Positions 1-27,362 of a DNA stretch of 27,362 bases are shown piece by piece (the first letter of the stretch is position 1; each line of letters opens with the position of its first letter). The position numbers and the translations under genes are program-made. The stretch comes from a virus. The stretch is taken from positions 1 through 27,362 of the IMG/VR virus record IMGVR_UViG_3300020473_000105. One strand, written 5' to 3'. Under the pieces are notes generated by a model that searched no databases, was not told where the DNA came from, and saw only the letters and a list, made by a program, of their open reading frames with translations.

Positions 1-2493
1 GGTGACCATGTAGTAGTGGGTAATGATATCTACGTGTGTGTTCATCCAAACGGCGCAGCCGAGGGTAGTGTTTTGTCCGACCCTCAGTTGTTTGAACGCG
101 ACGATGTGGTGTCTCGTGAAGATCTGGTAGGGCTTGAAGTATTCTGCGTGGAGCTAGGTGATGAAGAGGGTATGGTGGATGCTGTTTACCCGTACGGAAA
201 TGTACAGTACGGACCTACCACTTGGAATGGTTTCTCGCTGAGTACCAATGCCATGCCGCAATCTTATAGTGCGCAGTACGAAGACGATACTCAGACCACA
301 GGACGTGGTTTAAAGTGGACGTCGTTAACACCCGAGCAGCGTAACCGCTGGGCGCAGCAATACGAAAATAACATTTTCGTTGATAACGGTAACTATTTCC
401 AATGGCAGTATCGTGCTCGTGTGTTAAAATCACGTGGCGGTCACTGGCATGTGGGTGCGGCGTGGGAAGCGACTTCATGGGCGCTTAGAGATAACCGTAA
501 CAATGGGGCAGGTAATGAGTTCAACCGCTACCCTACTTTACAAGGGTCATCTACCATTACCAGACCAGATCATTTACGAACAGAAGATGATAGTAACATT
601 AGTTTCTTCCTGACCACATTAAACTCAGGTTTCCCTCTAGGGTCATCACGTGGTGTAGCGGCAACCGGTATTACCAACGACAGCAAGCGTCGCTCTGCTG
701 GTGGAGTAGGTTATTTCTACTCTTTAGCGCGTGTGCGGCGCTTAAACGAAGGTGGGTATCATCCGGTTTACAATATGCTAGGTACAAAGACATGGCGTCG
801 TCAGGATATCAATGGGGATAACCGTTGGATAAATGGTAATACATTTCAACCTGAAAATGTTGCACAGTGTTTCCAAGAAGGCCCTGAAGCAATGACAGAA
901 GGGTATTATATCAACTCGGGATTACTTAACAGTCCGCGTTCTGGCCATCCTCAAGATTACCGCAGTGACATTATTTACGGCTGGCAAATACAAGACCTCC
1001 GCATGGATGCTCACGGGTATAATGTATCGTCTGAAGAATACTCTAGTAAATTACTACACGGTGATATTGCAGGTTGGGAGCAGCAAGTTGTAATGCGCTT
1101 AATGGATACCACCCTTGAAGAGATTGTAGATGATGTCATGTTTTATGTGGCTGACAATGTTCTTGACGAATGGGGTGTTGTAGGCGCGTATACAGGTGGT
1201 GGTTATATCTACAATAAAACCAAAGACGATTACAGACCTATAAGTATTTATCACCACAGTAGTGGCCGTATACTGATACAGCCGCTAAAAGAGTCTGTCT
1301 CTCCCGAGCACATTGATAATTTCTACTCTAGTAGTCTACTAGAACGAAGTAATCGACCTCTGTGGGATGTGGGAGATGTGGTGACACTTATTGGTTATAA
1401 AAGAACATACGTCGCCTCCAGCAAGTTGGAATGTATGGACATTATTGCCACAGCTAAAGGTTTAGTCGACACCTTTGAACGTTATGGTGTCGATCGAGTA
1501 TTTGGTGCACGTTGGCTGCCTGCTGAATTGGGCGTTAACGGCTCGGCTGGTGTTGTATGTAAAGCACGCCGACGCGTAATTAATCCTTTTAGTGTATATG
1601 TCAATAAACCAGAAGGGTATTATGCGAATGTTGATTATCCTCTTGAGTTTGCTACTGTTAAAAATGAAGCAACTATTACAGAAGGGGCTGATCATTCATT
1701 ATTCTTACTGTACGTTACAAGAGCCATGTCGGTCTCTTATTATGGGTTTGGCCATAGGTTATTAGACGGTCAGTTTGGTGATGTTAAAATCTCAAACATG
1801 GCACGCGACGATCTAGGCGGCGCATTGTGTTATGCCATGACCGGTAAAGTACCTGTAAGTGATGATTACATTGAGACGGTTACCTATAAAGTAGACAGTA
1901 TGGGGTTAGACTATAGTAGCGTGAAGAAGTTTGACATTGTGGCGACAGCAGCAGGGTCTGCTATTTCACATGTAGATATAAACTTCCAACTCTACAGTGA
2001 TGGCTTTAAATATTCACCTTTCTTTTCTTTAAAAGAAACACATGGATTGGTTTATGGACAAGCATCATTTAAAGAAGTGTTGGCTGGTACTACTTCTAAA
2101 GATTATACGGTCATAGACCTTACAGCTGGCTCTGTAAATGTTGAATTAAAGGCGGGTGATCGCTTCGTACTTAAAGGTACTGCGCGTAGTAGCTTGGATG
2201 ATAAATATCTAATTGCTATTTCTGACCATTCTGCAACATGGACACCAGGTGCATTTAATGGTTTTAGAATTAACTATGACGATAGACGCATCTATAGTTC
2301 AAGTGGCGCGGTCTGGCCTGTGGTTATGTTAGATCCTACTACCGTCTCAGGTGACGATGGGGAGATTACCCCACGTTCAAGTCTTCTTATTGTTAAAGAC
2401 TTAAACGATAACGATGTAATGTTGGGAACAGTAATTACCAACAAACCGTTAGGGTTCTTACCTAAAGAAAAACGTCGTAACAATCGTAATTAA
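1..2493 (+). CDS. Tail-fibre/appendage paralog 1, 5' end cut by window
   Basis: Long virion-type protein, probably a tail fibre or appendage. It is the first of three tandem paralogs. The frame is open from base 1 (reads GDHVVVGNDIY), so the gene starts upstream; the GTG at 16 is internal, since paralogs 2 and 3 carry about 130 more N-terminal residues. Blocks shared with the paralogs include GNDIY near the N-terminus, NYFQWQYR, a W/RRQDINGDNRW segment, a SGHP...DLR segment, GWEQ, and the C-terminal ending LGFLPKEKR. There is no enzymatic motif. The protein is aromatic- and Asn/Asp/Gly-rich, as expected for a beta-rich fibre. A hairpin and then paralog 2 follow 46 bases later. That it is a virion protein is inferred from repetition, size and the downstream fibre genes; receptor binding is not proven. 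Confidence 0.7.
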   Translation, partial: GDHVVVGNDIYVCVHPNGAAEGSVLSDPQLFERDDVVSREDLVGLEVFCVELGDEEGMVDAVYPYGNVQYGPTTWNGFSLSTNAMPQSYSAQYEDDTQTTGRGLKWTSLTPEQRNRWAQQYENNIFVDNGNYFQWQYRARVLKSRGGHWHVGAAWEATSWALRDNRNNGAGNEFNRYPTLQGSSTITRPDHLRTEDDSNISFFLTTLNSGFPLGSSRGVAATGITNDSKRRSAGGVGYFYSLARVRRLNEGGYHPVYNMLGTKTWRRQDINGDNRWINGNTFQPENVAQCFQEGPEAMTEGYYINSGLLNSPRSGHPQDYRSDIIYGWQIQDLRMDAHGYNVSSEEYSSKLLHGDIAGWEQQVVMRLMDTTLEEIVDDVMFYVADNVLDEWGVVGAYTGGGYIYNKTKDDYRPISIYHHSSGRILIQPLKESVSPEHIDNFYSSSLLERSNRPLWDVGDVVTLIGYKRTYVASSKLECMDIIATAKGLVDTFERYGVDRVFGARWLPAELGVNGSAGVVCKARRRVINPFSVYVNKPEGYYANVDYPLEFATVKNEATITEGADHSLFLLYVTRAMSVSYYGFGHRLLDGQFGDVKISNMARDDLGGALCYAMTGKVPVSDDYIETVTYKVDSMGLDYSSVKKFDIVATAAGSAISHVDINFQLYSDGFKYSPFFSLKETHGLVYGQASFKEVLAGTTSKDYTVIDLTAGSVNVELKAGDRFVLKGTARSSLDDKYLIAISDHSATWTPGAFNGFRINYDDRRIYSSSGAVWPVVMLDPTTVSGDDGEITPRSSLLIVKDLNDNDVMLGTVITNKPLGFLPKEKRRNNRN

Positions 2494-2499
2494 TTTACT

Positions 2500-2519
2500 G
2501 CTGGGGCGAAAGTCCCAGC
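2500..2519 (+). terminator. Intercistronic GAAA-tetraloop hairpin
   Basis: An 8-bp stem (GCTGGGGC / GTCCCAGC, one G-T wobble) closes on a GAAA tetraloop just after the first fibre gene. It is followed by TTACACTGG, not a T-run, and lacks the TATGCCGT tail seen at unit ends here. It is better viewed as a weak/attenuating terminator or an RNA-stabilising or processing hairpin. Confidence 0.55.
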
Positions 2520-2539
2520 TTACACTGGAGTATTAATCC

Positions 2540-5398
2540 ATGGGAAATTTAGCCAATCGAGTCCCTGGGACCCTAAAGGCGTTGTCAAAGGCCCAGTTTG
2601 AATCTAACCGTCAGCAGACTAGAGTAAATCTAGCTTGTTCTGGTATAGTTGAATATGGTAAGCATTATACCAGTAGTGAATCACATAACCCCGCTGAAGG
2701 TCTGTTTGCATTTCCAAATGTACCTCTATCGCTTCAATCTGGTCGCGATAGAGAATTGAGCGGTGTTCAGGGTAATAGTGTTTCTGACTATCCAATTTTA
2801 AACGTTGATGGTGTTATTATTCATCTAACCAACGCTAACCATATTTCAAGTGCAAGCGATTGGAGACTGCCTGAAGCGCCTAACGCGCATGTAGAGATTT
2901 CCGCTACAACATCACGAATTTACCGTCAAGGTGACCATGTAGTAGTGGGTAATGATATCTACATATGCGTTAGTTACAACGATGTTCCGGCGGGGAGTAA
3001 TTTACTTGACAATAACTTATTTGAATCCCGCGCGGTGGTTACCGATGAGTGTCTGTTAGGTGTTGAAGTGTTTTGTGTAGAGTTAGGAAAAGACATTGAT
3101 GTTGTCTATCCTACTGGTTGCGTGCAGAACCAAACACAAACCTGGAACGGTTTTACATTAAATAAAACGTTGATTTCCAAGACGTATAGTGAGCTTGGTC
3201 ACTGGCAGGGTGATAATGCTAAACCGGGTTACGGGCATGTTTGGTCCAGTATGGATGCTGTGCAAAGAAATGTTTGGTTATCGGATAGTAAAAATAACAT
3301 TTACGAGGAGAATGGTAACTATTTCCAATGGCAGTATCGCCTGAAGACGACACAAGGACTAGGTGAAGCATGGACAGTTGACAGACCAAGTACCTTATCA
3401 AACTCAGCCATTAGAGGTAGTAGTGGTCGTCTGTCGTCGCCAGAGACGCTACTCCGCCTTCGTGGTAAGCGGGTTGGGGAGTTTAAAGACATTGGACCGG
3501 ATAATGGTGCCATTGTTTTCACCTACCATCATGCTGATAGACCGATGGAGGTAGATTGGGGGGTGGGTGTAACACGAGAAAACAATGGGGCGGTGACAGG
3601 GCCGGTGACAGACTCGCCAGTAGCATACTACCTACCTATAGCTGCGGTAACACGGTTAAATCAGGGAGGGTATCACCCTATATTTAACCCATTGGGTACA
3701 AAGACATTCCGCCGTCAAGACATCAACGGGGATAACCGTTGGGACAATGTCAACGTGTTTCAACCCACCACGGTAGCAGATTGTTTTAAGATTGGCGAAA
3801 CAGCACAATCTGAAGGCATCCACCCCGCTACTGGTAATTACGAATCAGGTAAATCGGGCCACCCACTCAACTACTATCACGATTCAATCTATGCGCACCT
3901 TGTTAACGATTTGCGATTTAGCGCCTATGGTGCCGAACTAAGTGCAGAAAACATTGCATATAAAATGATGTTTAATAAACTTAGCGGTTGGGAGCCTTTG
4001 AAGCGTACAGTTCTACATCGTGCCACTATTACGGAGTTGCCGAATGATCACCGTGTTGTATTATCGTCTTTGCCAGCTAAAGTATATATAGGGGGTGGGT
4101 GGTTATATAATGTAACTAAGCAGATCCACTCGCCTTGTATGCGTTTTAATGCAGCGTCAGAGTTTGTACAAACACTTCCTATGTCAGTTAATCCTTTAGC
4201 AATATCACCCGGACTAGCGACGTCGTCGGCGTTAACTTTAGGTGAGCGGGAAGGTAATTGGGAGGTGGGCGATGAAGTAATACTGATCCAGTATGAAAAC
4301 ATCAACGTTTACATGAAAAACCACTGTTATACCGATGTTGTAGGTGTGCCGGATAAAATCCTCGACTATTTACAGGGTCACGGTATGTCGTCTGCCGTTA
4401 ACTTTAACTGGATACCGGTTGTGCCAGATGGTACGCTTAAAGAGTATCGAGCTAATAGAAAAGTTAATACGATTGCTAACGCGGTCTTGGTCAGTAACGA
4501 CGATGGTGGGACTTGGTTTCAAGATACCTCCGCTTTATCTGGCTATATAGATGCAGCTAACGGTAACCACCGCACGGTACAACTTAGTCAATTACAACTA
4601 GTCCAGTATGAGGCAACCGGTAAGATCTTTGGTTATGATGATTTAGTACCTGGAGTTGAATTCTCTCAGAAAATTCAACATGCAGAAGGTGCGGATATAA
4701 GTGGTGTCTGGGTAAGTGTGTCGGCACACGATCACCTGGGCGGTGCAGTGATGCAGAGCGCGTTGGGTGAAGTAGCCCGTGGTTCAGCCGCTACGCCTTT
4801 ACGCTACGCAATTGAGCGTCATGGGTTGAGTAAATTAAGCTATGGTTGGGGTATAGATGCATCGTTAATGCAGCGCCCAGCACATACTGAGCTTGATTAC
4901 ATGGAGCCGTCGCACGGTATTAAATACTTTGTTACGCTAGGCTATCACCCGACTACCGGGTTAGTCTACCCGCAGGTTACGTTTAAAAAGGTCTTCCACA
5001 ACGCCCCGCTTATTCCGACCACCCCTATAGATCTTTCTACTAACCCAGTTGTAGATCTTAAGAAAGGTGAGCGTATCCGCTTAGTAAATACTCGCAATTC
5101 TAATATAGAAAATGTTGTACTTTCTATGGTTGAGGATTACTCTGGGCAATGGGCAACGGCGACGTTCGACAAACACCAAATCAGCTACGATGATGGTCGC
5201 GTGTATCGTGAGAACGGTACGTATATGAGTATTGCAGTAGTTGCACCTATAGCTAAATATGGTGATGATGGAGAGTTTTATGCTAACCCATCAGACGCCA
5301 TCCAATATCAACTCGACCTTAACGGTAATATCGTTATGACGGGCACGCTACTTAGTACAAAACCTTTAGGGTTTTTACCTAAAAAGTATCGTAGCTAA
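2540..5398 (+). CDS. Tail-fibre/appendage paralog 2
   Basis: A 952-aa full-length member of the tandem fibre family. ATG at 2540 is preceded by CTGGAG about 10 bases upstream. The N-terminus (MGNLANRVPGTLKALSKAQF) resembles that of paralog 3 and has a GIVEYGKHY segment matching GFIEPGKHY there. It is followed by a short module GDHVVVGNDIYICV (near residue 130), conserved in all three. Middle blocks NGNYFQWQYR, RRQDINGDNRW and SGHPLNYYHD, and the C-terminal LGFLPKKYRS, tie it to its neighbours. No signal peptide, transmembrane segment or enzyme motif is visible. Bases 2930-2962 are identical to 1-33 in paralog 1, suggesting recent recombination. Likely role is a virion surface fibre or appendage; exact position and ligand are unknown. 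Confidence 0.7.
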   Translation: MGNLANRVPGTLKALSKAQFESNRQQTRVNLACSGIVEYGKHYTSSESHNPAEGLFAFPNVPLSLQSGRDRELSGVQGNSVSDYPILNVDGVIIHLTNANHISSASDWRLPEAPNAHVEISATTSRIYRQGDHVVVGNDIYICVSYNDVPAGSNLLDNNLFESRAVVTDECLLGVEVFCVELGKDIDVVYPTGCVQNQTQTWNGFTLNKTLISKTYSELGHWQGDNAKPGYGHVWSSMDAVQRNVWLSDSKNNIYEENGNYFQWQYRLKTTQGLGEAWTVDRPSTLSNSAIRGSSGRLSSPETLLRLRGKRVGEFKDIGPDNGAIVFTYHHADRPMEVDWGVGVTRENNGAVTGPVTDSPVAYYLPIAAVTRLNQGGYHPIFNPLGTKTFRRQDINGDNRWDNVNVFQPTTVADCFKIGETAQSEGIHPATGNYESGKSGHPLNYYHDSIYAHLVNDLRFSAYGAELSAENIAYKMMFNKLSGWEPLKRTVLHRATITELPNDHRVVLSSLPAKVYIGGGWLYNVTKQIHSPCMRFNAASEFVQTLPMSVNPLAISPGLATSSALTLGEREGNWEVGDEVILIQYENINVYMKNHCYTDVVGVPDKILDYLQGHGMSSAVNFNWIPVVPDGTLKEYRANRKVNTIANAVLVSNDDGGTWFQDTSALSGYIDAANGNHRTVQLSQLQLVQYEATGKIFGYDDLVPGVEFSQKIQHAEGADISGVWVSVSAHDHLGGAVMQSALGEVARGSAATPLRYAIERHGLSKLSYGWGIDASLMQRPAHTELDYMEPSHGIKYFVTLGYHPTTGLVYPQVTFKKVFHNAPLIPTTPIDLSTNPVVDLKKGERIRLVNTRNSNIENVVLSMVEDYSGQWATATFDKHQISYDDGRVYRENGTYMSIAVVAPIAKYGDDGEFYANPSDAIQYQLDLNGNIVMTGTLLSTKPLGFLPKKYRS

Positions 5399-5410
5399 GT
5401 GTTAAAGTAC

Positions 5411-5430
5411 AAGGAGGTTTCGACCTCCTT
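5411..5430 (+). terminator. Intercistronic TTCG-tetraloop hairpin
   Basis: A perfect 8-bp stem (AAGGAGGT / ACCTCCTT) closes on the extra-stable loop TTCG between fibre paralogs 2 and 3. The 5' arm contains a consensus Shine-Dalgarno sequence that is buried in the stem; the working site for the next gene is TTGGAG nearer the ATG at 5448. There is no T-run and no TATGCCGT tail. It may be a processing or attenuation hairpin rather than a full terminator. Confidence 0.55.
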
Positions 5431-5447
5431 AGTTTGGAGTTAAATTC

Positions 5448-8288
5448 ATGTCTAATTTAATTAACCTCTTGCCTGATTCTGGTAGGGGGATGACGGTATC
5501 TGAGTTTGAAGCAGTACGTGAGCAGCGTCGCCAGTCGTTTGCTGTCTCTGGGTTCATCGAGCCCGGTAAACACTACGAAGATACCGTTAACAAAGTTGTT
5601 AACCAAGGTATCTGGTGTACGGTTTCGGGAGGTATTTCTAATACGTTTAGAATGGGACGTGTCCCGGGTGAGTCTGTCGCCATGGGTGAGAGCGATACGG
5701 CATATCCTGTGTATAACGTAGACGGCTTGCGTATCGTCCAAGATAAAGTAGCCGCGACGGGCCGTAATAATATCGTATTACCACCGGCACCAAGTGCTAA
5801 AGTTGAAACCTCAACTACTACGACACGTGATTATGCGTGTGGTGATCATGTTGTTATTGGCAACGATACTTACATTTGTATTGAAGACGCCCCTGCAGGT
5901 ATGCTGATAACAGACATTACGTATTTCAAACCGGTTGATGTTATATCGCGCGAAGACCTGGTGGGGATGGAAGTATTCCTTGTTGAGATTGGCGATGGTC
6001 CAGAACAAGTGCCGGCCGTTTTCCCACTTGGTAATGTACAATACGCGGGTAGAACTTCACCAGCATACGCAGATGGTGTAATGCCGCAATCTTATAGTGC
6101 GTTTGGGACTTGGGATACTGAAACATGGGGTCGTGGATACACCTGGGATTTAATGTCAGAAGAAGACAAGATAAATTTCTTAAATGACCCTGACAACAAC
6201 ATGTATCGAGATGGAAAACGTATCTTTCAATGGCAGTATCGTTTCCGTTCATTTGCAGGCGTTGGTGATGATTGGCGTTATAATAGCGGGTTTGATGATA
6301 ACGCTAACGCCGACCTTGGAAACCGAGGCGATTTGGTTAAACTAGCTATAAGTGCCCAAGGTTACAATGAGACTCCATATCCGTACAACTCGGGTCGTAC
6401 TTTTTTCCAGATCAACTCAGACAACCGTCCAGCAGACGTAGATGCTGGCGTTGCCATTACTAATCCTGAATTTGTGCCAATCAAAGCCATAGGTTCTATC
6501 TATTGGATGGGTATTGCACGGGTAACGCGGTTAAATCAAGGCGTATACCATCCGGTCTTTAATTCTACCGGCACACTACATCATGGGTTTGCTAACGGTA
6601 GTGGTGGATCTAAATGGTGGGTAAGTGGTCTTGCAAAACCAGCCCAGTCAGTATCTGATTGTTTCTTAGATCAGTCTAATGGGGGATCTGCTATTCACGG
6701 CATGTATGGAGGTAGTATTGATCAGCCACATTCCGGCCACCCCATGAATTACTACCATGACATCATCTACGACTGGCAGATTCAAGACCTTCGTGTTTCG
6801 GCACACGGTATTGATGTCGACTCTGATGCGTTTGCAGGTGATCTTTTAAATGGCCGTATACGTGGTTGGGAGCAGATGAAGGGCCTAGCGGTCATGCGTT
6901 CAACCATCACAACACTTGATGTGGGAACTGGTGAAATTCGCATACCACCATCAGGGGCGTTGGCGCGCTTCGCCCAAGAGCGTCGCCTCGGTGGGGGTTG
7001 TTGGATTTACAATGTAGATAAAGATAATTTCATCCCTGCATCTAAAATTAAATGGACCGATACAGTAGGTGATGACCTTTACTACCCTATTGGTGAGAAT
7101 GTTAGCCCTACTATTTTAGAGGGTTCCACCATTACAGGGAGTTCTAACATTGCTACCTATCCGGGCGATACTAAATTGTTTACAACATGGGATGTTAATG
7201 ACAGCGTTATCGTGCTGATGCCAATCACACTACCGTACTCGTTAGAGCATAGATTTGTGACCGAAGTATGTGCAAAGCCGACAGTACTAGCGGATCTTTT
7301 AGATAACTTTGGGGTAGATTTTGTTCCAAATTTGAACTGGCTACCTGCATTACCTAATGATACAAATAAATCATTTAAATTGCTTCGTAGACTGGTTGAT
7401 AAATACCCGCCGGTGACAACAGATGATGGAGGGGTTAGTTGGGATATTGATTACCGATATACCAATAACTTTGACGTTGATGAAAATGCTGCTATGGTGA
7501 CAATGGCATCTGGATCAATCACCCTATTGTCCTATGTTTACCGTTCTAAGATGTTATTAAATTCATCTACAGGACGCGCGTTGGCTACGGCTGAGTTAGG
7601 CAAGGTCTACGCGGTGCGTGGTGGCGATAGCAACGTTATACTGCCAGCACTATTAGGTAAGGTAGGTGGTCCTGTGGGTGGTATGGCTTACACGTCCCAT
7701 AGTCTTGAACGCGCTTTGTTAAACTACGGCGATAAAGAAGGCGGGGTTTTTGAAAGTTCTTGGTCTGGTGAGGCAGTCAAGCATAGTTCAATTGCAGCGT
7801 TTTTCCGTGGTGATGGGGTTAAAATTCTACCCTACCTGTCTAGAGACCTAGCACCCCAGGCAGTATACGGTAATGTCATGTTCAGAGAGCTTCAACATTT
7901 TAAAGATCTTCATGATGTGAAAATTGTTGATCTTGCTACGTCGGTAACCCATGGGTTGGTTAGAGGCGATCGTTTTGTAATCAAAAACAGTAGCAATCCT
8001 GTTATGAATGATACCATCTTCGTAATGGTATTGGATCCTGACAGTAACTGGGATCATGATTCTTTTCAAAATTACTATATCAATTATGAAGATAATCATG
8101 TTTATAAGGCAAATGGCTACCTGCATCCAATGTTTATGGTTGAACCCATAAATAACGTTGGAGATGATGACACCATGCAGAACTACCATCAAGTTACCTT
8201 TTCAACAAACTTAAACAACCAACAAATTGCACGCGGTCAATCACGCACGGTCAGACCGCTTGGTTTTCTACCTAAGGAGAAACGCTAA
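5448..8288 (+). CDS. Tail-fibre/appendage paralog 3
   Basis: A 946-aa third copy of the fibre family, starting at ATG 5448 after TTGGAG. It keeps the N-terminal pattern (MSNLINLLPDS, GFIEPGKHYED, YPVYNVDGLRI), the module CGDHVVIGNDTYICI, FQWQYRFR, SGHPMNYYHDIIYDWQIQDL, GWEQM, and the ending LGFLPKEKR. It lacks the RRQDINGDNRW block of copies 1 and 2, carrying HHGFANGSGGSKWW there instead, so it is the most divergent of the three. Its stop overlaps the ATG of the next gene (TAATG at 8286-8290), so the two are translationally coupled. Likely a virion fibre or appendage subunit. Divergence among three adjacent copies suits alternative or hetero-oligomeric receptor contacts, but that is inference. 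Confidence 0.7.
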   Translation: MSNLINLLPDSGRGMTVSEFEAVREQRRQSFAVSGFIEPGKHYEDTVNKVVNQGIWCTVSGGISNTFRMGRVPGESVAMGESDTAYPVYNVDGLRIVQDKVAATGRNNIVLPPAPSAKVETSTTTTRDYACGDHVVIGNDTYICIEDAPAGMLITDITYFKPVDVISREDLVGMEVFLVEIGDGPEQVPAVFPLGNVQYAGRTSPAYADGVMPQSYSAFGTWDTETWGRGYTWDLMSEEDKINFLNDPDNNMYRDGKRIFQWQYRFRSFAGVGDDWRYNSGFDDNANADLGNRGDLVKLAISAQGYNETPYPYNSGRTFFQINSDNRPADVDAGVAITNPEFVPIKAIGSIYWMGIARVTRLNQGVYHPVFNSTGTLHHGFANGSGGSKWWVSGLAKPAQSVSDCFLDQSNGGSAIHGMYGGSIDQPHSGHPMNYYHDIIYDWQIQDLRVSAHGIDVDSDAFAGDLLNGRIRGWEQMKGLAVMRSTITTLDVGTGEIRIPPSGALARFAQERRLGGGCWIYNVDKDNFIPASKIKWTDTVGDDLYYPIGENVSPTILEGSTITGSSNIATYPGDTKLFTTWDVNDSVIVLMPITLPYSLEHRFVTEVCAKPTVLADLLDNFGVDFVPNLNWLPALPNDTNKSFKLLRRLVDKYPPVTTDDGGVSWDIDYRYTNNFDVDENAAMVTMASGSITLLSYVYRSKMLLNSSTGRALATAELGKVYAVRGGDSNVILPALLGKVGGPVGGMAYTSHSLERALLNYGDKEGGVFESSWSGEAVKHSSIAAFFRGDGVKILPYLSRDLAPQAVYGNVMFRELQHFKDLHDVKIVDLATSVTHGLVRGDRFVIKNSSNPVMNDTIFVMVLDPDSNWDHDSFQNYYINYEDNHVYKANGYLHPMFMVEPINNVGDDDTMQNYHQVTFSTNLNNQQIARGQSRTVRPLGFLPKEKR

Positions 8289-10150: not shown

Positions 10151-10529
10151 TATTCAAATACTTTTAATGCATACTCCTTATCTAACAGAGAACTCCGCTC
10201 AAGGTACCTGTAAGCCTCTCTCGCGTTAGAAAAGATAATATCCGGATGATTGGGTTGCTCTAAGATAACGTCCTCTGAGATCCCGCTACAGCCCCTTCTG
10301 CTTTGACAGTTAGCCGTCCATAGACCTTACCTATTAGGTCGTTCTTATTTAGACAACCACAACTTTGAGTATCACCCGCATTTAGACTTTTAGCCGAAGC
10401 AACTTTCGCATTCCCACAATCACATAAACAATTCCACCAATTGCCCCTCTGACCTTCCTTATTGGGAGCCTGATCTACTACGGTTAATTTACCGAACTTC
10501 CGTCCCGTTAAATCTATACCTCTTCCCAC
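10150..10529 (-). pseudogene. Zinc-ribbon DNA-binding gene, apparently frameshifted
   Basis: The N-terminal part matches the phage CxCDCG/SCGC zinc-ribbon family seen in homing-endonuclease-like and other mobile phage genes: DLTGRKFGKLTVVD, then WWNCLCDCGN, then SLNAGDTQSCGCL. A second copy then begins (DLIGKVYGRLTV) but stops at 10260. Reading shifts without a break into another frame after a GGGG run near 10291-10294, giving a further stretch (...EQPNHPDIIFSNAREAYRYL) that ends at TAA 10152-10150. The intact protein would be about 126 aa. The likely start is GTG 10529, preceded by AAGGTGG. The cause may be natural decay, a sequencing error in the homopolymer, or programmed shifting. The only minus-strand gene among plus-strand fibre genes, it looks like an insertion. 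Confidence 0.6.
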
Positions 10530-10701
10530 ATTTACCACCTTTTAATATCGTACACTATTTAGGTAATGTAGGTATGTAATTCTATAGAGCATAGAAGCTA
10601 TATCTTGTGACTATGTTTCGTAAATACCCCATTAGCTTTACCTGGTGTAAGGCAATTTATTTAAATAATCTTACTACAAATGTTACATCCAGGAGTATGC
10701 A
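10530..10701. promoter_or_regulatory. Divergent intergenic region
   Basis: An AT-rich 172-bp stretch between the minus-strand zinc-ribbon gene and the plus-strand 176-aa gene. Promoters for both should lie here. I cannot assign a convincing sigma-70 or T4-type late promoter. It holds the Shine-Dalgarno sites for each side (AAGGTGG for the minus gene; CAGGAG before ATG 10702) and the right copy of the inverted repeat. Confidence 0.4.
10608..10619 (-). repeat. Inverted repeat, right copy
   Basis: TGACTATGTTTC is the exact reverse complement of the 12 bases at 10097-10108. See the left copy. Confidence 0.4.
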
Positions 10702-13148: not shown

Positions 13149-13420
13149 ATATCATCCTTGGAGACCTTTAATTTAATATTTTCAAACATCAGCTTAAGGG
13201 CACCTAAGAAACCACCCATATAAGCCACTACTGATACCATCTGCCATTCTTCAAATCGATCAAAGTTACTTTTATAAAAAGAATGAAAGTCCCATACCAG
13301 AAAACAGATAAACACCAAACACGCTACCTGTGCTATGCGTAGTTTCATTAGCAAATAGGCTATCTCATGTATCCTGTTGTCCAAGCGCCGCCGCTCAGGT
13401 TGGATCTCGTTACTCATCAT
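13145..13420 (-). CDS. Two-pass membrane protein, lysis cluster
   Basis: A 91-aa protein with a charged N-terminus (EIQPERRRLDNRIHEI), transmembrane segments at ~28-46 and ~61-79, and a basic tail. It starts at ATGATG 13420-13415, preceded by GGAG, and overlaps the end of the o-spanin gene by 11 bases and the next gene by 4. Size, two-pass layout and charged ends fit class II holin-like proteins, but a separate holin candidate is already present upstream. It could be an antiholin or accessory lysis protein. No specific family is recognised. Confidence 0.65.
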   Translation of the reverse strand: MMSNEIQPERRRLDNRIHEIAYLLMKLRIAQVACLVFICFLVWDFHSFYKSNFDRFEEWQMVSVVAYMGGFLGALKLMFENIKLKVSKDDI

Positions 13421-13967
13421 TTAACTCCATTACCGCTTTTTGTTGCATATCAGCAGAACGTTCTAGTTCTTTAATCACATTCTCAAGATAAGTGATTCTG
13501 TTTCGCAACTGTTCACTGTACAAACCTAATTGTATCAGTTGGCTTTCTAACATAAACCATCCTTGGACGGTATAGCCATAGATAGCCCAATTACACGCAC
13601 TTTCTCTAGTCATACCAGGGTAGCGCTCATAGACTTCCTCTACGGTATACGCACCCTCTTGACCAGCATCTTTAAACTCATCACAAACGTGCCTGTAGAA
13701 CATGGCATCCTGAGCAGTTAATGTAATGACTTCAGGTATGGTGATGTCAGGTTGAGGCACAGCTGCAGGTAGGGTAGTCTTAGGGAGTATCGGGATGGTT
13801 TTCACCTTCACGACCTGAGGTTCCGGCGATAGCGCGCAGGAGCTCACCAACACGCACAGAAGCAGCGTTACCCCGTGCGTAAGGTTCTTCCAAAGCTTTA
13901 ACAGCTTCGGTTTGTCTGAGGGTGTTGAGAGTGTTTTCCAGACGGTTGGCGCGAGCGAAGGCATCAT
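13410..13967 (-). CDS. Outer-membrane spanin lipoprotein (Rz1-type), unusually long
   Basis: The o-spanin partner of the overlapping Rz-type gene. A basic n-region (KPKLLKLWKN), hydrophobic stretch (VTLLLCVLV) and lipobox VSSC (Cys44 from the preferred start) mark a signal-peptidase-II lipoprotein. A Pro-rich segment follows (13 residues after the Cys: PILPKTTLPAAVPQP), as usual for Rz1. It then continues ~110 residues more, with a Cys-containing folded region (YRHVCDEF...SACNWAIYGY) and a terminal coiled coil (EQLRNRITYLENVIKELERS). Classical Rz1 proteins are far shorter. ATG 13967 has GGAG nine bases upstream inside the 5' codons; an in-frame ATG at 13982 is an alternative. About 190 bases overlap the i-spanin gene in another frame. 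Confidence 0.75.
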   Translation of the reverse strand: MMPSLAPTVWKTLSTPSDKPKLLKLWKNLTHGVTLLLCVLVSSCALSPEPQVVKVKTIPILPKTTLPAAVPQPDITIPEVITLTAQDAMFYRHVCDEFKDAGQEGAYTVEEVYERYPGMTRESACNWAIYGYTVQGWFMLESQLIQLGLYSEQLRNRITYLENVIKELERSADMQQKAVMELNDE

Positions 13968-14214
13968 TGTTTTGTTCTCCATATTCTACCAACAAATCAG
14001 CCTGTCTTTGGGTAAGCGTAGTGAGTTGGTCTATTGTTTCTAATTGTCGTTCATTGACACTGGTTAATGTGGCGTTATGTTGTTCTAACTCTACAATCGT
14101 TGCACTTTGTAACGCGTAGTCTCTTTCTAAAACAACATGCTTGTAGCTAATAAATCCAATTGCACCTAAAAGAGCAACAATGCTAAAACCGGCTATTTTA
14201 TATCCAAGTAACAT
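13780..14214 (-). CDS. Inner-membrane spanin (Rz-type)
   Basis: A 144-aa i-spanin candidate. It has an N-terminal membrane anchor (residues ~5-24, KIAGFSIVALLGAIGFIS) and a long periplasmic coiled coil (VELEQHNATLTSVNERQLET through ANRLENTLNTLRQ). Its C-terminus (VRVGELLRAIAGTS) would contact the o-spanin. ATG 14214 has AAGGAAAAG upstream, and the gene starts 12 bases after the holin. The downstream o-spanin begins inside this gene in another frame, the hallmark overlapping Rz/Rz1 arrangement. Together they span the periplasm and fuse inner and outer membranes in the last step of lysis of Gram-negative hosts. Confidence 0.8.
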   Translation of the reverse strand: MLLGYKIAGFSIVALLGAIGFISYKHVVLERDYALQSATIVELEQHNATLTSVNERQLETIDQLTTLTQRQADLLVEYGEQNNDAFARANRLENTLNTLRQTEAVKALEEPYARGNAASVRVGELLRAIAGTSGREGENHPDTP

Positions 14215-15447: not shown

Positions 15448-16092
15448 TTAGATCAACTCGTTTACACTAAAGATAACATCATCGTAAACATCTTTAGGTG
15501 ACTGATTTGCATTGATGGTTAGCGTATGCGCACTTGCTGGCTTTAAGCTATTATACGTTGCCACGGTAGCGTTGTAACGTCCCGCCCATTGATTAAATAC
15601 TTCAATAGGTTGATCATCATTTTTATCCGCTACCTGACCTCGCCCCTCACCATACATGCAACGATTCTTCGCCACATGAGGATCTACATTTAAATAGATA
15701 AGAAAATCAGGAATAGCATACTCATCAAGTATCTCAGCGATCAATTCATTGAGAGGATGTGTGTTATAATAGTCGTGTTGGTATACAATAGTAGATAACC
15801 AATAACGATCTAACACAATCCATGTACCTTTAGCCAGTAGTGGTTTAATTATCTCTTCTAACAGACAACGACGTGATAACCACAATAGCTCAGATTGAGT
15901 CTGCGCTGAGATATTACTATCAGGGTGTTTGATCAACGTACGAACGGCTTCACCGATGTCAGTATCGCCGGGTTCACGATAGTTATTAACGTCTACACCA
16001 TGAACCTCGCGAAGCCAACTTACCAGTCGTTCTACTACCGTTGTCTTACCCGCACCTTCAATCCCTTCTACAACAATAAGTTTACCTGACAT
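15448..16092 (-). CDS. tmk: dTMP kinase (thymidylate kinase)
   Basis: A 214-aa nucleoside monophosphate kinase that phosphorylates dTMP to dTDP with ATP. P-loop GIEGAGKTT (residues 10-18), substrate segment YREPGDTDIGEAVR (38-51), DRYWLSTIVYQ (95-105) with the DRY motif typical of thymidylate kinases, and a LID-like GEGRGQVADKND. Length is normal for the family. ATG 16092 is chosen: it has AAAGGTG upstream and lies one base after the dUTPase stop; an in-frame extension to 16134 would disrupt the typical N-terminus. It acts after dUTPase, which supplies dUMP for thymidylate synthesis. No thymidylate synthase lies in the window. Confidence 0.92.
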   Translation of the reverse strand: MSGKLIVVEGIEGAGKTTVVERLVSWLREVHGVDVNNYREPGDTDIGEAVRTLIKHPDSNISAQTQSELLWLSRRCLLEEIIKPLLAKGTWIVLDRYWLSTIVYQHDYYNTHPLNELIAEILDEYAIPDFLIYLNVDPHVAKNRCMYGEGRGQVADKNDDQPIEVFNQWAGRYNATVATYNSLKPASAHTLTINANQSPKDVYDDVIFSVNELI

Positions 16093-16093
16093 A

Positions 16094-16816
16094 TTACACC
16101 TTTGAATAAATGAGATGGTTTGCCCACGCTGCATCTAATGCGTCATGAATATAGTCCGCTACTTTATCGCTGGGAATATTCAAATCAATAGCGGCTAATA
16201 CCGTAATTTCTAAGATGGCATTATCAGCAGTAGATTCACCAGTGCTAGAAACGCACCAGTTGCGACAATAAGTACCTTCTTTATCACCATGCTGTTGTCT
16301 GAAATGATTAAGTTGATTTTTACCAATATACCATGTATACAACGCTTCAAAACTTAGTCCTAAATCTTCCATGATACGCATGAAGTAAGTGATGTCGGGC
16401 TCACGAAATTCAATGGTATCGTTAATAAAACGCTCTACATCAACACATAGCTCTTCCACACCCTCTGGAAAGGTTAACGGCTTCCCAAACGGTCCTTCAT
16501 TTAAGATACTATCCGCTAGAACAATAGCAACATCTTGAAATGACTCTTCTTCGTCGCGGCGTTGTAAAAGATGCGATAGGTAGAAATGCCAAATATCGAC
16601 AACTTCCAACTGTGCCTGCTTAACGCTAACCTTGCCTTTCTTCCACCATTCCCAGTCAACCCATTCGGTAACGAGCTCAGACGCCTCTGTCCACATCGCA
16701 CGGTACCAGGGGCGTTCTAAACTTACCCAATCTTCCGTTTTATTCATCACTACATTAACATCGTGTTGTTTTTGAAGCATATCGGTTAAGGCGTTTATTA
16801 ATTGTACTTTATCCAT
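16094..16816 (-). CDS. All-alpha dUTPase (dimeric dUTPase family)
   Basis: A 240-aa enzyme of the all-alpha NTP pyrophosphatase superfamily that hydrolyses dUTP to dUMP and PPi. Metal-binding pairs TEASELVTEW (Glu44, Glu47) and QAQLEVVDIWHF (Glu71, Asp74) match the ExxE...ExxD pattern. The C-terminal signature YIGKNQLNHFRQQHGDKEG with YCRNW is diagnostic of dimeric dUTPases. ATG 16816 with AAGGATA upstream is preferred over in-frame 16873. It overlaps the preceding zinc-ribbon gene by 8 bases and is one base from tmk. Keeps uracil out of phage DNA and feeds dTMP synthesis. Confidence 0.9.
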   Translation of the reverse strand: MDKVQLINALTDMLQKQHDVNVVMNKTEDWVSLERPWYRAMWTEASELVTEWVDWEWWKKGKVSVKQAQLEVVDIWHFYLSHLLQRRDEEESFQDVAIVLADSILNEGPFGKPLTFPEGVEELCVDVERFINDTIEFREPDITYFMRIMEDLGLSFEALYTWYIGKNQLNHFRQQHGDKEGTYCRNWCVSSTGESTADNAILEITVLAAIDLNIPSDKVADYIHDALDAAWANHLIYSKV

Positions 16817-17087
16817 TATCTTTATCCTTGTTAGGTAAAATGTAATCGTTAATTTGATCAATTGAAAATCCATTTGGATCAGTCGACCATATTACTTGGG
16901 AGATATCAACGTTGAACGTATAGTCTTTACCACATACGCTACATTGATGAGGTACTTTCTTATTTTCAACCCCACCCCACCATTCTGTAACGTTTGCACT
17001 TTCTCTAAGAGACTTTACCGGACTACCACAAACATCACAGTCGTAGGCAATTTGAAAGGGAGTAAGGATCACTTGTCTAGCGGGCAT
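16809..17087 (-). CDS. Small zinc-ribbon protein, 92 aa
   Basis: Four Cys in two CxxC knuckles, CDVCG (17-20) and CSVCG (49-52), with NVTEWWGGVENKK between, form a likely zinc ribbon. The C-terminus is acidic and polar. ATG 17087 (MPARQVILTPFQ) is chosen because TGGAG lies eight bases upstream; the longer in-frame reading from 17162 would lie inside the DHFR gene. It overlaps DHFR by 11 bases and dUTPase by 8. Not recognised as a named family; being inserted between two nucleotide enzymes suggests co-expression but not necessarily a metabolic role. Confidence 0.75.
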   Translation of the reverse strand: MPARQVILTPFQIAYDCDVCGSPVKSLRESANVTEWWGGVENKKVPHQCSVCGKDYTFNVDISQVIWSTDPNGFSIDQINDYILPNKDKDNG

Positions 17088-17661
17088 AACGACGCTCCAG
17101 TGTAGTACGCATATCAGTATCAGGATTTTCTGTATCAACAAAGTGAAGAATCTGAAACCCAACGCCTGGGCTCTTAGATTTCTCTAATTCACTGATTTTT
17201 TCAATACAGTAATTATCAAGAAGAGAGGTGTCAAAGAACGTATCACAGTCGAAATGCGATACTTTAGCATGAGATATACGCGTAACAATATAACGGTCAA
17301 CCCAGCGATGCATGGTTTTATAGATCTCAGCCCCACCGCAGATGAATATCTTAGTACGCTTTCCACCTGTATCAATAGCGTCCGCTAGGGCTCTAGCCGT
17401 CCACATGGCATTTTCAGGACTTGAGGCAACAATAACACCCTGTGCATTTAATCGCATGTCTCTAGTAAGAACAATAGTAACACGCCCCGGCAAAGACTTC
17501 CCTATGCTTTCAAAGGTTTTACGACCCATAATGACAATTTGTTTATAGGTCGTTTCTTTGAAATGTTTAAAGTCTTCCGGACAGTACCAAGGAATGGCAT
17601 TATCACGCCCTATTCCCCAGTTGGCATCACAAGCCAATATACCGATAGCGCTATCATACAT
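17077..17661 (-). CDS. Dihydrofolate reductase
   Basis: A 194-aa DHFR reducing dihydrofolate to tetrahydrofolate with NADPH. Visible motifs: GIGRDNAIPW (16-25), catalytic acid in CPEDFKHFKETT (Asp30), the NADPH segment IMGRKTFESIGKSLPGR (44-60) followed by VTIVLTRD, CGGAEIY (108-114), and DTFFD (140-144). Length matches phage T4-type DHFR. ATG 17661 has GGAGAAAGG upstream and overlaps the preceding gene by 8 bases. It supports dTMP synthesis, which consumes folate, together with dUTPase and tmk. As a phage enzyme it need not confer trimethoprim resistance; I would not call it a resistance gene. Confidence 0.95.
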   Translation of the reverse strand: MYDSAIGILACDANWGIGRDNAIPWYCPEDFKHFKETTYKQIVIMGRKTFESIGKSLPGRVTIVLTRDMRLNAQGVIVASSPENAMWTARALADAIDTGGKRTKIFICGGAEIYKTMHRWVDRYIVTRISHAKVSHFDCDTFFDTSLLDNYCIEKISELEKSKSPGVGFQILHFVDTENPDTDMRTTLERRYAR

Positions 17662-22615: not shown

Positions 22616-25285
22616 ATGGCAACAGAACATATTCGCAAACACTCCCATCCCCGCCATGACGCTGATCAAGGGATGTCGGCCGAAACTAAAAGCATCATTG
22701 ATAAAATAGTTAATCCCACACAATCAGATGGAGAGCCGCCTAGAAAAACAAAAGCGCCTTCAATGAATGTGATGGAAACTATTTCTAATGAGATAGCCAC
22801 TAACATTAACGATGCTAGGGCTATATTTGAAATTCTGCCTGATACCGAAATGGCGATGCAGGTATTAGTATCGTCAATACTTTCGCCTAAAGACATGATC
22901 TCTACAGACATCAACTTCACCTCCAGCGTATCTGGTGAGGCTGCTGATATAGCGGCTAGTGTCATAAAGATTGTGCAGAATTATTTCATCACCGAGTTTG
23001 GTCTTAAACGTCGCCTCAGTAGTATATTGCAAGACGCGTTATTTAAGACAGGTAGTTATCCCATTGCTGTTATACCTGAAAATACGTTAGATGATGTAAT
23101 TAACAGTAACGACCAGGTATCTACAGAAAGCGTGAAGTCTTTCTTCACTAAAGATACTACCAGTGTTCGTCCTCTGGGATTGTTAGGTAACCCTAGTAGT
23201 GGTAGCAAGAAAACCAGCATTGGTATAGAAAGTTTATTTAGCGCTAACACAACGCCTGATAAGTTTGAGGATTTTAATCCCTATACCACGGTGACGGATA
23301 ACTTTAACGCACTTAAAGTGCCTGCACTGTTAACAAAGGCACGCCAACATGCAGTAGCAGATACGTTTCAAAACAGAGCTGTTGCGGGTGTAAAAGTTGG
23401 GTTAGAATCATGGCGTGGTAAGCAGGGAGAAGACAAACCAACTGTACTTAAATCAGCATATCGCCGCCGTGTCTACACCCAGCGCTCTGCTGTACAGCTA
23501 CAGACCTCTGAGGCGCTCAACCGTGAAGCGGTGGGTCATCCCTTGGTGATGAAGTTACCTAGTGAATCTGTTATTCCTGTACACGTCCCCTCTGATCCAT
23601 CTAACCATGTTGGTTACTATGTGTTATTAGATAAGAACGGTAATCCGGTTACACGTGCTAAAGACTCTAAATATTTCATTAATTTAAAGCAACGTTTGAA
23701 AAAAGAAAACGAAGGCACGAGTGAGCTCATAGAACAAGTACGTCAAGGTATGTATGGTGAACGTAGTAACATTGCTGATCGTACTGAGTCTGAAATCATT
23801 GCTTCTTATACGTCTCTAATCGAAAACGATTTAGTCGCACGCTTAGAAGCGGGTGTGTACAATGAGAATGCCACATTATCATGCCCTAGTGAAGTAGGTC
23901 GTATCATGCTTGGTCGTGCATTAAGTAAAATGCATACTCAGGTATTATTCATTCCTGCTGAACTGCTGACGTATGTGGCTTTTGATTACAACGACAACGG
24001 TACAGGACGTTCATTGATTGAAGGTTCTAAGATTATAGCATCGCTGCGTGCTATGACCATGTTTGCAAACACTATGGCCGGTATCAAGAACTCTAACAAC
24101 CGCACTAAGTTGAACATTACCTTAGATGAAGATGATCCAGATCCAGCAAGCACTGTGGAGAAGATCATGCACAACTTTACTAAGAATCATCAACTTAGCT
24201 ATCCGTTAGGTACTATTGATCCATCGGACATTACAGGTTACCTGCAACGCTCGTCAGTTGACATTAACGTAGAGGGTCACCCTGCTTATCCTAATACCAA
24301 GACCAACGTAGAAGATGGTCAACGTAGCATGGTTAATGTTGATACGGCACTAGAGGAAAGCTTACGTAATCGTCACTTCATGTCGATGCATATTGCGCCT
24401 GAGATTGTAGACTCTACGCTAGATGTTGAATTTGCTACTAACGTAGTAGGTTCTAATTTACTGTTGGCTAAACGCGTTATCATCTATCAGGATACACTGT
24501 GTGATCACTTATCTGATTTCATTCGTAAGTTTACGTCTAATTCATCAGTATTGATGGAGCAGATTGTAGAGGTGATTGAAGAATCTTCATTAAGTAAGAA
24601 GCTTAAACAAGGTAAGAGTGATGTAACTGATGATGGTACCTTAGATACAGTAGAGTCACTAATTGCTGAAATCATTGATTCTATCCGTATTAGCTTACCT
24701 ACGCCAGATACTGCTAAGTTAGCTAACCAGGGCGCGTCCTTTGAAGAGTTTAACAGTCTTCTTGAAGCAGCACTGCCTGCTTACTTAGATGCGGAGATGT
24801 TTGACGGTATGTTAGACTCTGACCTTGAAGAAGGTATTGAAGGAACCATCGCCGCGCTGCGTAGTTACTTCCAGCGTCAATGGTTGCGTAAGAATAACAT
24901 CATGCCAGAACTTGACGGGATGGTTAATGATGGTTCAGTGGATAGTTTTGATATTGTAACTGTACATAAAGACCACGCTGAAGCCATTCTTGGACCAATG
25001 CAGAAACTATTAAGGATGATGCGTAAGGAAGGACGTAAAGCACAAGGTAACTTGGATGCTGATCAGGACAAGGATACACAAGCAGTAGAAGAGAAAGATG
25101 CAATGATTCAATCATTACAAGAAGAGTTAGAAGCGCTTAAAGCTAAGCTTGAAAGTAATGAGGAAGCGGAAACAGAGGAAGCTGTAGATGATAATACAGA
25201 CATCCCTGAAGACCTAGAAAGTGAAGAATCTGAAACACCACCTAGTGAAGAACCGGGTGCTGATGACGATCTACCACCACTTTAA
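22616..25285 (+). CDS. Probable portal vertex protein, 889 aa
   Basis: The likely portal, the dodecameric ring through which DNA enters the capsid and to which the tail attaches. Portal-like features: ARAIFEILPDTEMAMQVLVS (near residue 70-88), LSSILQDALFKTGSYPIAVI, the central VLFIPAELLTYVAFDYNDNG with GRSLIEGSKIIASLRAM (near 440-485), then an IKNSNNRTKLNITLDED clip-like stretch and helices VEKIMHNFTKN and LLLAKRVIIYQDTLCDHLSD. The C-terminus has a coiled coil (MIQSLQEELEALKAKLES) and a very acidic tail (EEAETEEAVDDNTDIPEDLE). At 889 aa it is longer than the T4 portal (~520 aa), as in some large phages. ATG 22616, AGGTAA upstream. It is the only gene of its unit. Confidence 0.7.
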   Translation: MATEHIRKHSHPRHDADQGMSAETKSIIDKIVNPTQSDGEPPRKTKAPSMNVMETISNEIATNINDARAIFEILPDTEMAMQVLVSSILSPKDMISTDINFTSSVSGEAADIAASVIKIVQNYFITEFGLKRRLSSILQDALFKTGSYPIAVIPENTLDDVINSNDQVSTESVKSFFTKDTTSVRPLGLLGNPSSGSKKTSIGIESLFSANTTPDKFEDFNPYTTVTDNFNALKVPALLTKARQHAVADTFQNRAVAGVKVGLESWRGKQGEDKPTVLKSAYRRRVYTQRSAVQLQTSEALNREAVGHPLVMKLPSESVIPVHVPSDPSNHVGYYVLLDKNGNPVTRAKDSKYFINLKQRLKKENEGTSELIEQVRQGMYGERSNIADRTESEIIASYTSLIENDLVARLEAGVYNENATLSCPSEVGRIMLGRALSKMHTQVLFIPAELLTYVAFDYNDNGTGRSLIEGSKIIASLRAMTMFANTMAGIKNSNNRTKLNITLDEDDPDPASTVEKIMHNFTKNHQLSYPLGTIDPSDITGYLQRSSVDINVEGHPAYPNTKTNVEDGQRSMVNVDTALEESLRNRHFMSMHIAPEIVDSTLDVEFATNVVGSNLLLAKRVIIYQDTLCDHLSDFIRKFTSNSSVLMEQIVEVIEESSLSKKLKQGKSDVTDDGTLDTVESLIAEIIDSIRISLPTPDTAKLANQGASFEEFNSLLEAALPAYLDAEMFDGMLDSDLEEGIEGTIAALRSYFQRQWLRKNNIMPELDGMVNDGSVDSFDIVTVHKDHAEAILGPMQKLLRMMRKEGRKAQGNLDADQDKDTQAVEEKDAMIQSLQEELEALKAKLESNEEAETEEAVDDNTDIPEDLESEESETPPSEEPGADDDLPPL

Positions 25286-25669: not shown

Positions 25670-27362
25670 TTATCCCCACAGTCCCAATGCGTAGTAGTCT
25701 TTACTTAGCCAACCTGGCAGTACTTTTAGGCGGTACCCATCGATAGTGTCGATGAAATAATGACGTACGTTCAACTCGCCTGTGCGAGAGAATAGATCTT
25801 TTAACACTTTAAACTCAGTTGGATTAACTGATTGTTTAACCGATGCAATAGGTGTTTCTTTAGCGATGTTAAGCTCCATTTCTTTAAGGCTCCAAGGAAC
25901 CTGAGTAATAGAGATAACGTCTGCTAAGAATACCACAGCGTAATCTTCTTTAGTTAGATCTAAGATGTCTGGATCTTCGATGTTTTCTACAAAGCCCGAT
26001 AAGTCGGTAGATTCTGCTACTTCTACAATGTTATCTTTAAGACGCTCAGCATCGTAGGTAGATTGTAGATAGTTACTTACATCACCTGCTGGGACAGCAG
26101 AGAAGATAAGCGATAGTAGATCGTTAACTTTATCTTCAAACAATTTACACGTACGCTCACCGTGTTCATTTTTGATTTCAGTTAATAGATCACCGAAGTC
26201 AGCTAACTCATCTATAGTCCATTCAATAGACAACGAGTAGTTAAGTGCATCGTTGATAATACTGATAGCGCGATTAGCAATTTGACCACAGAAACGCTCA
26301 GGCATATCTAAACCGTTCATAGTCTTAATGAAATCACCCATCGTCTCTGCTGCAATCAGCTCATTTGCACCTTCGCGGTCAACACGATAAGCAATAGGTT
26401 TTAACTGACGATATTGGAATTCCAAGATAGCGTTTTCGGGGATCTTGATATTTTTGCTGATTAACGCTTGACGCAGATAGAACTCTGCTTGCTGATCAGA
26501 ATGCGCATCAATTAGATTGTTAAGCTGCACTGCTGGAACCATCTCATCCTCCTCAGCCTCATCCGACAGAATTGTCGCTGTGGCGTTTACGTAATGGTAG
26601 TTCCCCCATCCATCGCCTTGAGGAGAACCGCTAGGCTTACCTAGATTTTGAGTAGTAAGGGCTTTGTCTAATTCGTGCTGTTCGTAATCCATGAATTCAC
26701 CTTTTTCTTTAATGACTTCCACGACGTAACCGTCTTTGTGCGGTAAGTAAATACGCTCGTGTGTGTTAGGGTTGTGTAAAATGTTAACAGGTAGAGTAGG
26801 TAATGTACTCATATCGGTAGTTAAGTCGGTATAGTATAACGGTGCGTCGTATTTAGACGAAAGTTCATTGTCAAACGACACATCTTCAACAGGCTTAATC
26901 TCAGGGGTATCCCAGCGACCACGACCAAAAGATTCTACGGTGTTGGTTGCTGGTTTCTTATCCGTCTTACCCACATCGACTTCTTCATAGTTGTGTAACC
27001 CGCCACGACGACCTGTATCTACTGTCGAACGGGTAGGTGTGCGTTGGTTGGTGAACATCGATGAACCACCGTTATTCATACCGCCATAGTTATTACCTTG
27101 GTAGCTTGACTGGCTACTGAACCCACTCGTTGAATTAAATCCACTTGTGCGCGGTGCGTAACGATCACCACCGCCCTGGTTATAACCATAACCACCTTGA
27201 TTGTAGCCCCCGCCTTGATTGTAACCACCTTGGTTAAGGCCACCACCTTGGCTACCCCACTGACGACCACCACCTTGCTGTTGATTTTGAAACTGCATAA
27301 TTTGTTGCTTCAATTGCTCAAACTCAGCGAGCGTGGACTGTACAGAATTGATGATGTTTGGA
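25670..27362 (-). CDS. Large protein with Gly/Asn/Gln/Tyr-rich segment, 5' end cut
   Basis: Open to the window edge (reads ...NIINSVQSTLAEFEQLKQQI), so the true start lies beyond 27362; 27313 is internal. Visible order: coiled coil with Gln-rich end; a ~70-residue low-complexity stretch built of QGGYNQGGGYNQGGYGYNQG-type repeats and FNSTSGFSSQSSYQGNNYGG; a linker; then ~430 residues of globular, acidic, helical sequence (e.g. AVQLNNLIDAHSDQQAEFYL, WTIDELADFGDLLTEIKNEH) ending in KVLPGWLSKDYYALGLWG. The low-complexity part resembles prion-like or phase-separating domains and SSB-type linkers, but the folded part is not SSB. No function can be assigned; next to portal and virion genes it may be an internal virion or assembly protein. 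A classical terminator follows. Confidence 0.7.
   Translation of the reverse strand, partial: PNIINSVQSTLAEFEQLKQQIMQFQNQQQGGGRQWGSQGGGLNQGGYNQGGGYNQGGYGYNQGGGDRYAPRTSGFNSTSGFSSQSSYQGNNYGGMNNGGSSMFTNQRTPTRSTVDTGRRGGLHNYEEVDVGKTDKKPATNTVESFGRGRWDTPEIKPVEDVSFDNELSSKYDAPLYYTDLTTDMSTLPTLPVNILHNPNTHERIYLPHKDGYVVEVIKEKGEFMDYEQHELDKALTTQNLGKPSGSPQGDGWGNYHYVNATATILSDEAEEDEMVPAVQLNNLIDAHSDQQAEFYLRQALISKNIKIPENAILEFQYRQLKPIAYRVDREGANELIAAETMGDFIKTMNGLDMPERFCGQIANRAISIINDALNYSLSIEWTIDELADFGDLLTEIKNEHGERTCKLFEDKVNDLLSLIFSAVPAGDVSNYLQSTYDAERLKDNIVEVAESTDLSGFVENIEDPDILDLTKEDYAVVFLADVISITQVPWSLKEMELNIAKETPIASVKQSVNPTEFKVLKDLFSRTGELNVRHYFIDTIDGYRLKVLPGWLSKDYYALGLWG

Follow-up and report, generated by a model that had tools for sequence, protein, structure and literature searches.

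The disordered linker of a marine phage JADA ortholog varies in composition with the C-terminal tails of ChmA and the gp70 family

The low-complexity repeat segment encoded on the minus strand at positions 27040-27300 of the window (the whole stretch of 27,362 nucleotides analysed here, from IMG/VR virus record IMGVR_UViG_3300020473_000105) belongs to the disordered linker in a marine ortholog of the phiKZ gp124 protein, JADA, from a nucleus-forming phage (Chimalliviridae). In the structural model the linker connects a helical N-domain with a C-domain that has the JADA fold. The JADA family and its disordered linker are already known from published work. Between phages, the composition of the linker covaries with that of two C-terminal tails, of the shell protein ChmA and of the gp70 family; the ChmC tail shows no such relationship. 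No report of changes in linker style, or of a match with the ChmA and gp70 tails, was found in the open-licence papers searched. As judged from sequence, the covariation may reflect interaction or co-assembly of the linker with these two tails at the vesicle-to-nucleus stage, and the reading preferred here, with a probability of about 0.5, is that the linker is an interaction segment holding JADA at the site of shell assembly.

JADA is an essential, early protein that is found at early-infection (EPI) vesicles and whose C-domain activates the Avs5 defence (PMC12931631; PMC13282480). The C-domain homodimer, the localisation to EPI vesicles and the activation of Avs5 are published for the Pa36 JADA only (PMC12931631). 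The nuclear shell is thought, according to a review, to begin at the vesicle. The terminal segments of ChmA bind neighbouring protomers and are needed for self-assembly of the shell, at which PhiPA3 gp64, a member of the gp70 family, is also found (PMC10643120). The covariation is relevant given that (i) JADA is both an essential protein and a trigger of bacterial defence against jumbo phages, for which a concrete partner hypothesis is now provided, and (ii) it bears on how the phage nucleus starts beside the vesicle.

The minus-strand frame that ends at position 25670 stays open to the right end of the window, and therefore only the last 563 residues of the protein are present (25670-27361, residues 137-699 of 699). 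The intact gene in a close IMG/VR relative (L002:7593-9692) encodes 699 amino acids. Comparison with this relative sets the first residue in the window at residue 137 and the N-terminal 136 residues beyond the window end, such that the N-terminus noted as missing in the original prediction is supplied by the relative and is modelled as that of a helical domain. In a PHROGs search the protein matches phrog_15010 in two stretches (8.7e-23), and with phmmer it matches PDB entry 9rp3 ('Gp316/JADA') at 1.4e-6, most strongly on the N-domain. A tblastn search with its C-domain finds 201phi2-1 (2e-6), and the protein can be aligned with both 201phi2-1 gp204 and phiKZ gp124. The modelled C-domain, itself of moderate confidence, has 9rp3 as its sole significant PDB match in Foldseek (E 1e-11). 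Beyond the window, 47 bases upstream of the intact gene and in the same direction, lies a homolog of PHIKZ123 (L002:5929-7545; 7ogp_E, 3.5e-92). In phiKZ, gp123 is one of the subunits that form the non-virion RNA polymerase (nvRNAP), and the JADA gene comes after gp123 in all of the relatives compared. The plus strand of the window encodes a homolog of the portal protein (phiKZ gp129/PhiPA3 gp148; 22616-25285) that matches phrog_3004 at 8e-210 and, by tblastn, 271 phiKZ-like records. ChmA is encoded on the near-identical contig G001 (E 4.5e-43, and phrog_4795), the window being a fragment only. The family match, the upstream gp123, the phiKZ-type portal and the ChmA on the relative's contig thus place the segment in a JADA gene carried by a jumbo phage that forms a nucleus.

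The location of the gene among head genes (portal, capsid) is the one point that fits a flexible linker of a virion protein, as had once been suggested for this segment. JADA, however, is an infection protein that is expressed early, and the annotation of 201phi2-1 marks the neighbours gp200 and gp211-213 as detected by mass spectrometry and leaves gp204 unmarked, such that a place in the virion is extremely improbable. In PhiPA3 the JADA gene (L009:7944-10035) is broken into two frames, gp140 and one without annotation, and gp141 is annotated over it on the opposite strand, which could represent a frameshift, a sequencing error or a misannotation. Neither gp140 nor gp141 was found in the main text of the paper on shell interactions (PMC10643120).

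Other genes of the window include three consecutive large tail-fibre-like paralogs (1-8288, plus strand; phrog_14489), the second and third of which share 29% identity over their full length. Antisense between tail genes, a 92-residue fragment (10260-10538, minus strand) matches phrog_374, an HNH endonuclease family, over 60 residues and is possibly the remnant of a homing endonuclease. At 13410-14214 (minus strand) an Rz-like spanin gene (phrog_739) overlaps with a second gene that starts inside it and has a lipoprotein-like N-terminus, and the two probably form a nested spanin pair. A nucleotide-metabolism cluster of thymidylate kinase, dUTPase_2 and dihydrofolate reductase occupies 15448-17661 (minus strand).

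The repeat segment itself encodes MQFQNQQQGGGRQWGSQGGGLNQGGYNQGGGYNQGGYGYNQGGGDRYAPRTSGFNSTSGFSSQSSYQGNNYGGMNNGGSSMFTNQRT. The motif NQGG occurs four times within 27170-27235, against a mean of 0.016 and a maximum of 2 in shuffles of the whole fragment and a mean of 0.13 when the segment itself is shuffled. Across 60 residues (27083-27262), G, N, Q, S and Y together account for 82% (shuffle mean 46%, maximum 62%), and in this richness the segment ranks first among the 185 ORFs of a near-identical 190-kb relative. The repeated QGGYNQGG units of the original prediction are real as repeats, the exact unit occurring only once and the others being variants of it. No tandem repeat was found in the DNA of the segment and its codons are varied, so that the repeat lives at the level of the protein. 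A slippage array of tandem DNA repeats was rejected on the same ground, although one 7-residue unit of the array is missing in L004 and L015, an instance of repeat-length variation among relatives, for which the original prediction had proposed a search.

The AlphaFold2 model has a helical N-domain over residues of about 4-166, disorder over 166-333 (pLDDT below 50) and then the C-domain at moderate confidence. With the family alignment, the disordered linker is set at residues 161-295 (26885-27289), with the QGG/YNQGG array inside it at 27167-27277 and the C-terminal domain with the JADA fold at 25673-26884, all on the minus strand. The comparison with shuffles and the model bear out what had been foreseen, a prion-like linker of low complexity flanked by two folded parts. 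The supposed coiled coil upstream of it is modelled instead as the last helix (residues 137-166; 27272-27361, minus strand) of the folded N-domain. A PUA-like RNA-binding subdomain in the C-domain was also considered and was dropped, as the weak RsmE/YggJ matches (E 0.14) were not strengthened by a better model.

Could such a segment cause JADA to phase-separate alone and thereby build a compartment? Among the stickiest 75 residues in the L002 linker 16% are aromatic, the aromatic spacing in the window segment is more even than in 98% of shuffles, and the mean stickiness of the linker, on a published scale, is the highest among 40 family linkers and 185 ORFs. The segment is short, however, and most of the family linkers are poorer in aromatics. 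Moreover, a Pa36 JADA-mScarlet3 fusion that is expressed before infection is diffuse until infection (PMC12931631), its linker being aromatic-poor, unlike that of the window phage. Prion-like composition alone does not show condensation, and the diffuse Pa36 protein argues against self-driven condensation as the function of the family, which is left unsupported; an autonomous prion-like driver is accordingly quite improbable. Of the compartment role that was first proposed, the published presence of JADA at EPI vesicles (PMC12931631) stands and condensation driven by the segment alone is unsupported.

How the linker changes over time depends upon the distance at which it is viewed. Between the window and L002 there are 25 synonymous and 7 non-synonymous changes in the linker, a pN/pS of 0.08 that equals that of the C-domain and denotes purifying selection. 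In comparison with relatives at about 66% identity it varies in length and changes at about twice the rate of the domains, such that its residues are conserved on short time scales and remodelled on longer ones. On whether the repeats persist among relatives, a point raised in the original prediction, close relatives keep the repetitive segment and distant ones have a low-complexity linker of another composition. A linker is present in every family member compared, at 113-249 residues in length, but its sequence is not retained; for the distant members, homology was checked by comparing profiles, chiefly those of the C-domain. The style is YNQGG in the window phage, GGNQGGGW in FLC9, Arg/Asp in FLC6, GVGVG in Noxifer, RGG/FGR in DT01, Kodama and KpMJ359, and Met/Gln/Pro in phiKZ, PA1C and RVTF4. 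The genes that follow gp123 in Phobos (L035:5268-6821, with SNNPFLA repeats) and SPN3US (L036:4678-6354, with GGLGGSGG) are also of low complexity and represent either extreme divergence or replacement; their homology to JADA was not shown (hhalign probability 0.2% and 6%, respectively) and they were left out of the family statistics.

The RGG-type linkers bring to mind a nucleic-acid-binding segment that would hold nascent phage RNA or DNA beside the non-virion RNA polymerase, a notion that also draws on the constant position of the gene after gp123 and on the strong change in phage transcription upon depletion of phiKZ gp124 (PMC12571901). The window linker is nearly uncharged, though, in that of FLC6 acidic and basic residues are about equal in number and that of Noxifer consists of GVGVG, and there is therefore no nucleic-acid-binding chemistry common to the linkers, which makes such a role hard to credit.

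The link to the shell came from a similarity search within each genome, in which the phiKZ gp70 family (which includes PhiPA3 gp64) has a C-terminal tail of the same style as the JADA linker in each phage. The C-terminal tail of ChmA, which was noticed after gp70, also matches the linker style phage by phage. The control is the tail of ChmC (phiKZ gp67), which is GGN-type in nearly all phages; pir03 was excluded from the set as it has no gp70 match. For 14 phages, Mantel tests of tail and linker composition, which are lenient with related sequences, give r 0.81 for JADA with ChmA and 0.73 for JADA with gp70, against 0.05 for the ChmC tail, and partial Mantel tests that take account of phylogeny and folded-domain composition give 0.79 and 0.70 (p 1e-4). 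Since gp70 had first been spotted by eye, an unchosen ranking of 67 ortholog groups from 10 genomes was undertaken. By the C-terminal 45 residues ChmA ranks first (0.81) and gp70 second (0.71), with a mean over the groups of -0.01, an s.d. of 0.23 and ChmC in 49th place; by the lowest-entropy window gp70 ranks first and ChmA only tenth. Eleven further IMG/VR phages, from about six lineages, give partial r values of 0.54 (gp70), 0.58 (ChmA) and -0.12 (ChmC), and the 25 phages combined give a partial r of about 0.71 for ChmA and gp70. Removal of the four Arg/Asp-rich phages weakens the relationship, to 0.57 (p 0.008) for JADA with ChmA and 0.36 (p 0.04) for JADA with gp70, and leaves gp70 with ChmA at 0.09, which is not significant.

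Local motifs are clearly shared beyond composition with a mean z of 2.2 for JADA and gp70 and, weakly, of 1.2 for JADA and ChmA and 0.6 for gp70 and ChmA, values that run high because shuffling breaks internal repeats. In the window lineage the motifs common to JADA and gp70 include GYNQGGY/GWNQGGY. A common GLF/GFG motif as the basis of all ChmA-JADA pairs was rejected, as it is seen in few phages only. JADA, ChmA and gp70 jointly differ in style between the sister phages FLC6 and FLC9, and DT01 and the KpMJ359/Kodama pair have positions elsewhere in both trees, so that, as judged by tree topology, the style has probably changed more than once. In KpMJ359, an Arg-rich phage, the gene just before gp70 (the PicA position; L163, record 63261-64784) also has an Arg/Gly-rich stretch.

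The linker could instead be a passive flexible tether that spaces the N-domain from the C-domain dimer and drifts in composition, its match with the tails arising from shared ancestry or a phage-wide compositional habit. That a linker is kept everywhere without its sequence, and changes twice as fast as the domains, would be expected of a tether, as would the published JADA structure, a C-domain dimer in which cryo-EM density is absent for the linker and the N-domain (PMC12931631). Such drift is at odds with the strong constraint between close relatives, with the lack of any such covariation for ChmC and for most of the other proteins that these genomes encode, and with the joint change in FLC6 and FLC9. 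A mere tether is a candidate, albeit an unlikely one. Because its composition covaries with the ChmA and gp70 tails, we infer that the linker is an interaction segment and not only a tether.

As an interaction segment, the linker would work in the following manner. JADA would be produced early, from the genome enclosed in the vesicle, and multivalent, sequence-matched contacts of its linker with the tails of ChmA and gp70 would retain it next to the EPI vesicle, at the site of shell assembly. A linker in the style of the ChmA tail would thereby put JADA at the vesicle, where the shell is thought to begin. The targets of the N-domain and the dimeric C-domain would then be phage transcription or the handling of the genome, the C-domain being the part that Avs5 would sense. 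In the window phage the contact code would be of an aromatic/Gly/Asn/Gln type (YNQGG, WNQGG). A broader and more tentative proposal, possible though on the doubtful side, is that the ChmA C-terminal segment, the gp70-family protein and the JADA linker carry a lineage-specific disordered code, which when matched would allow recognition or co-assembly at the hand-over and which is rewritten jointly. If so, joint rewriting could help to separate the nuclei of co-infecting phages, and co-evolving disordered segments would be a feature of an organelle built by a virus of bacteria.

How does this linker compare with known systems? The linker of bacterial SSB is flexible and rich in Gly, Asn and Gln. 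The JADA linker resembles it in composition, but JADA has no SSB domain: the likeness drawn in the original prediction was rejected, as searches of Pfam and PHROGs found no SSB family and the C-terminus (KDYYALGLWG) is without an acidic tip. The SSB-like tail of the window phage belongs to its ChmC homolog (L075:12763-13464, on the contig of L002), whose C-terminal end is a GGN-rich linker followed by DFDDDIF, resembling the SSB acidic tip, and which has no match in the PDB by phmmer. Tips of a similar acidic/aromatic kind close the sequences of ChmC homologs, and ChmC may therefore recruit its partners in the manner of SSB. In Erwinia phage pEa_SNUABM_54 (L106, L116; record 235884-237047) two ChmC-like units are in tandem within one frame of 482 residues.

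Eukaryotic low-complexity domains of the prion-like or RGG kind consist of Gly, Asn, Gln and Ser with spaced aromatics, or of RGG. The likeness to them is one of composition, in the window linker and in the RGG linkers of sister lineages. Unlike them, the window segment is in a phage, is short and lies between two folded domains, and its phase separation is putative. Finally, the JADA proteins of Pseudomonas phages have only about 20-23% identity to the window ortholog, and the linker of phiKZ consists of Met, Gln, Pro and Gly where that of the window phage has YNQGG repeats. What they have in common (Pa36 gp316, phiKZ gp124 and 201phi2-1 gp204) is the N-domain, the disordered linker, the fold of the C-domain, the site after gp123 and a nucleus-forming phage.
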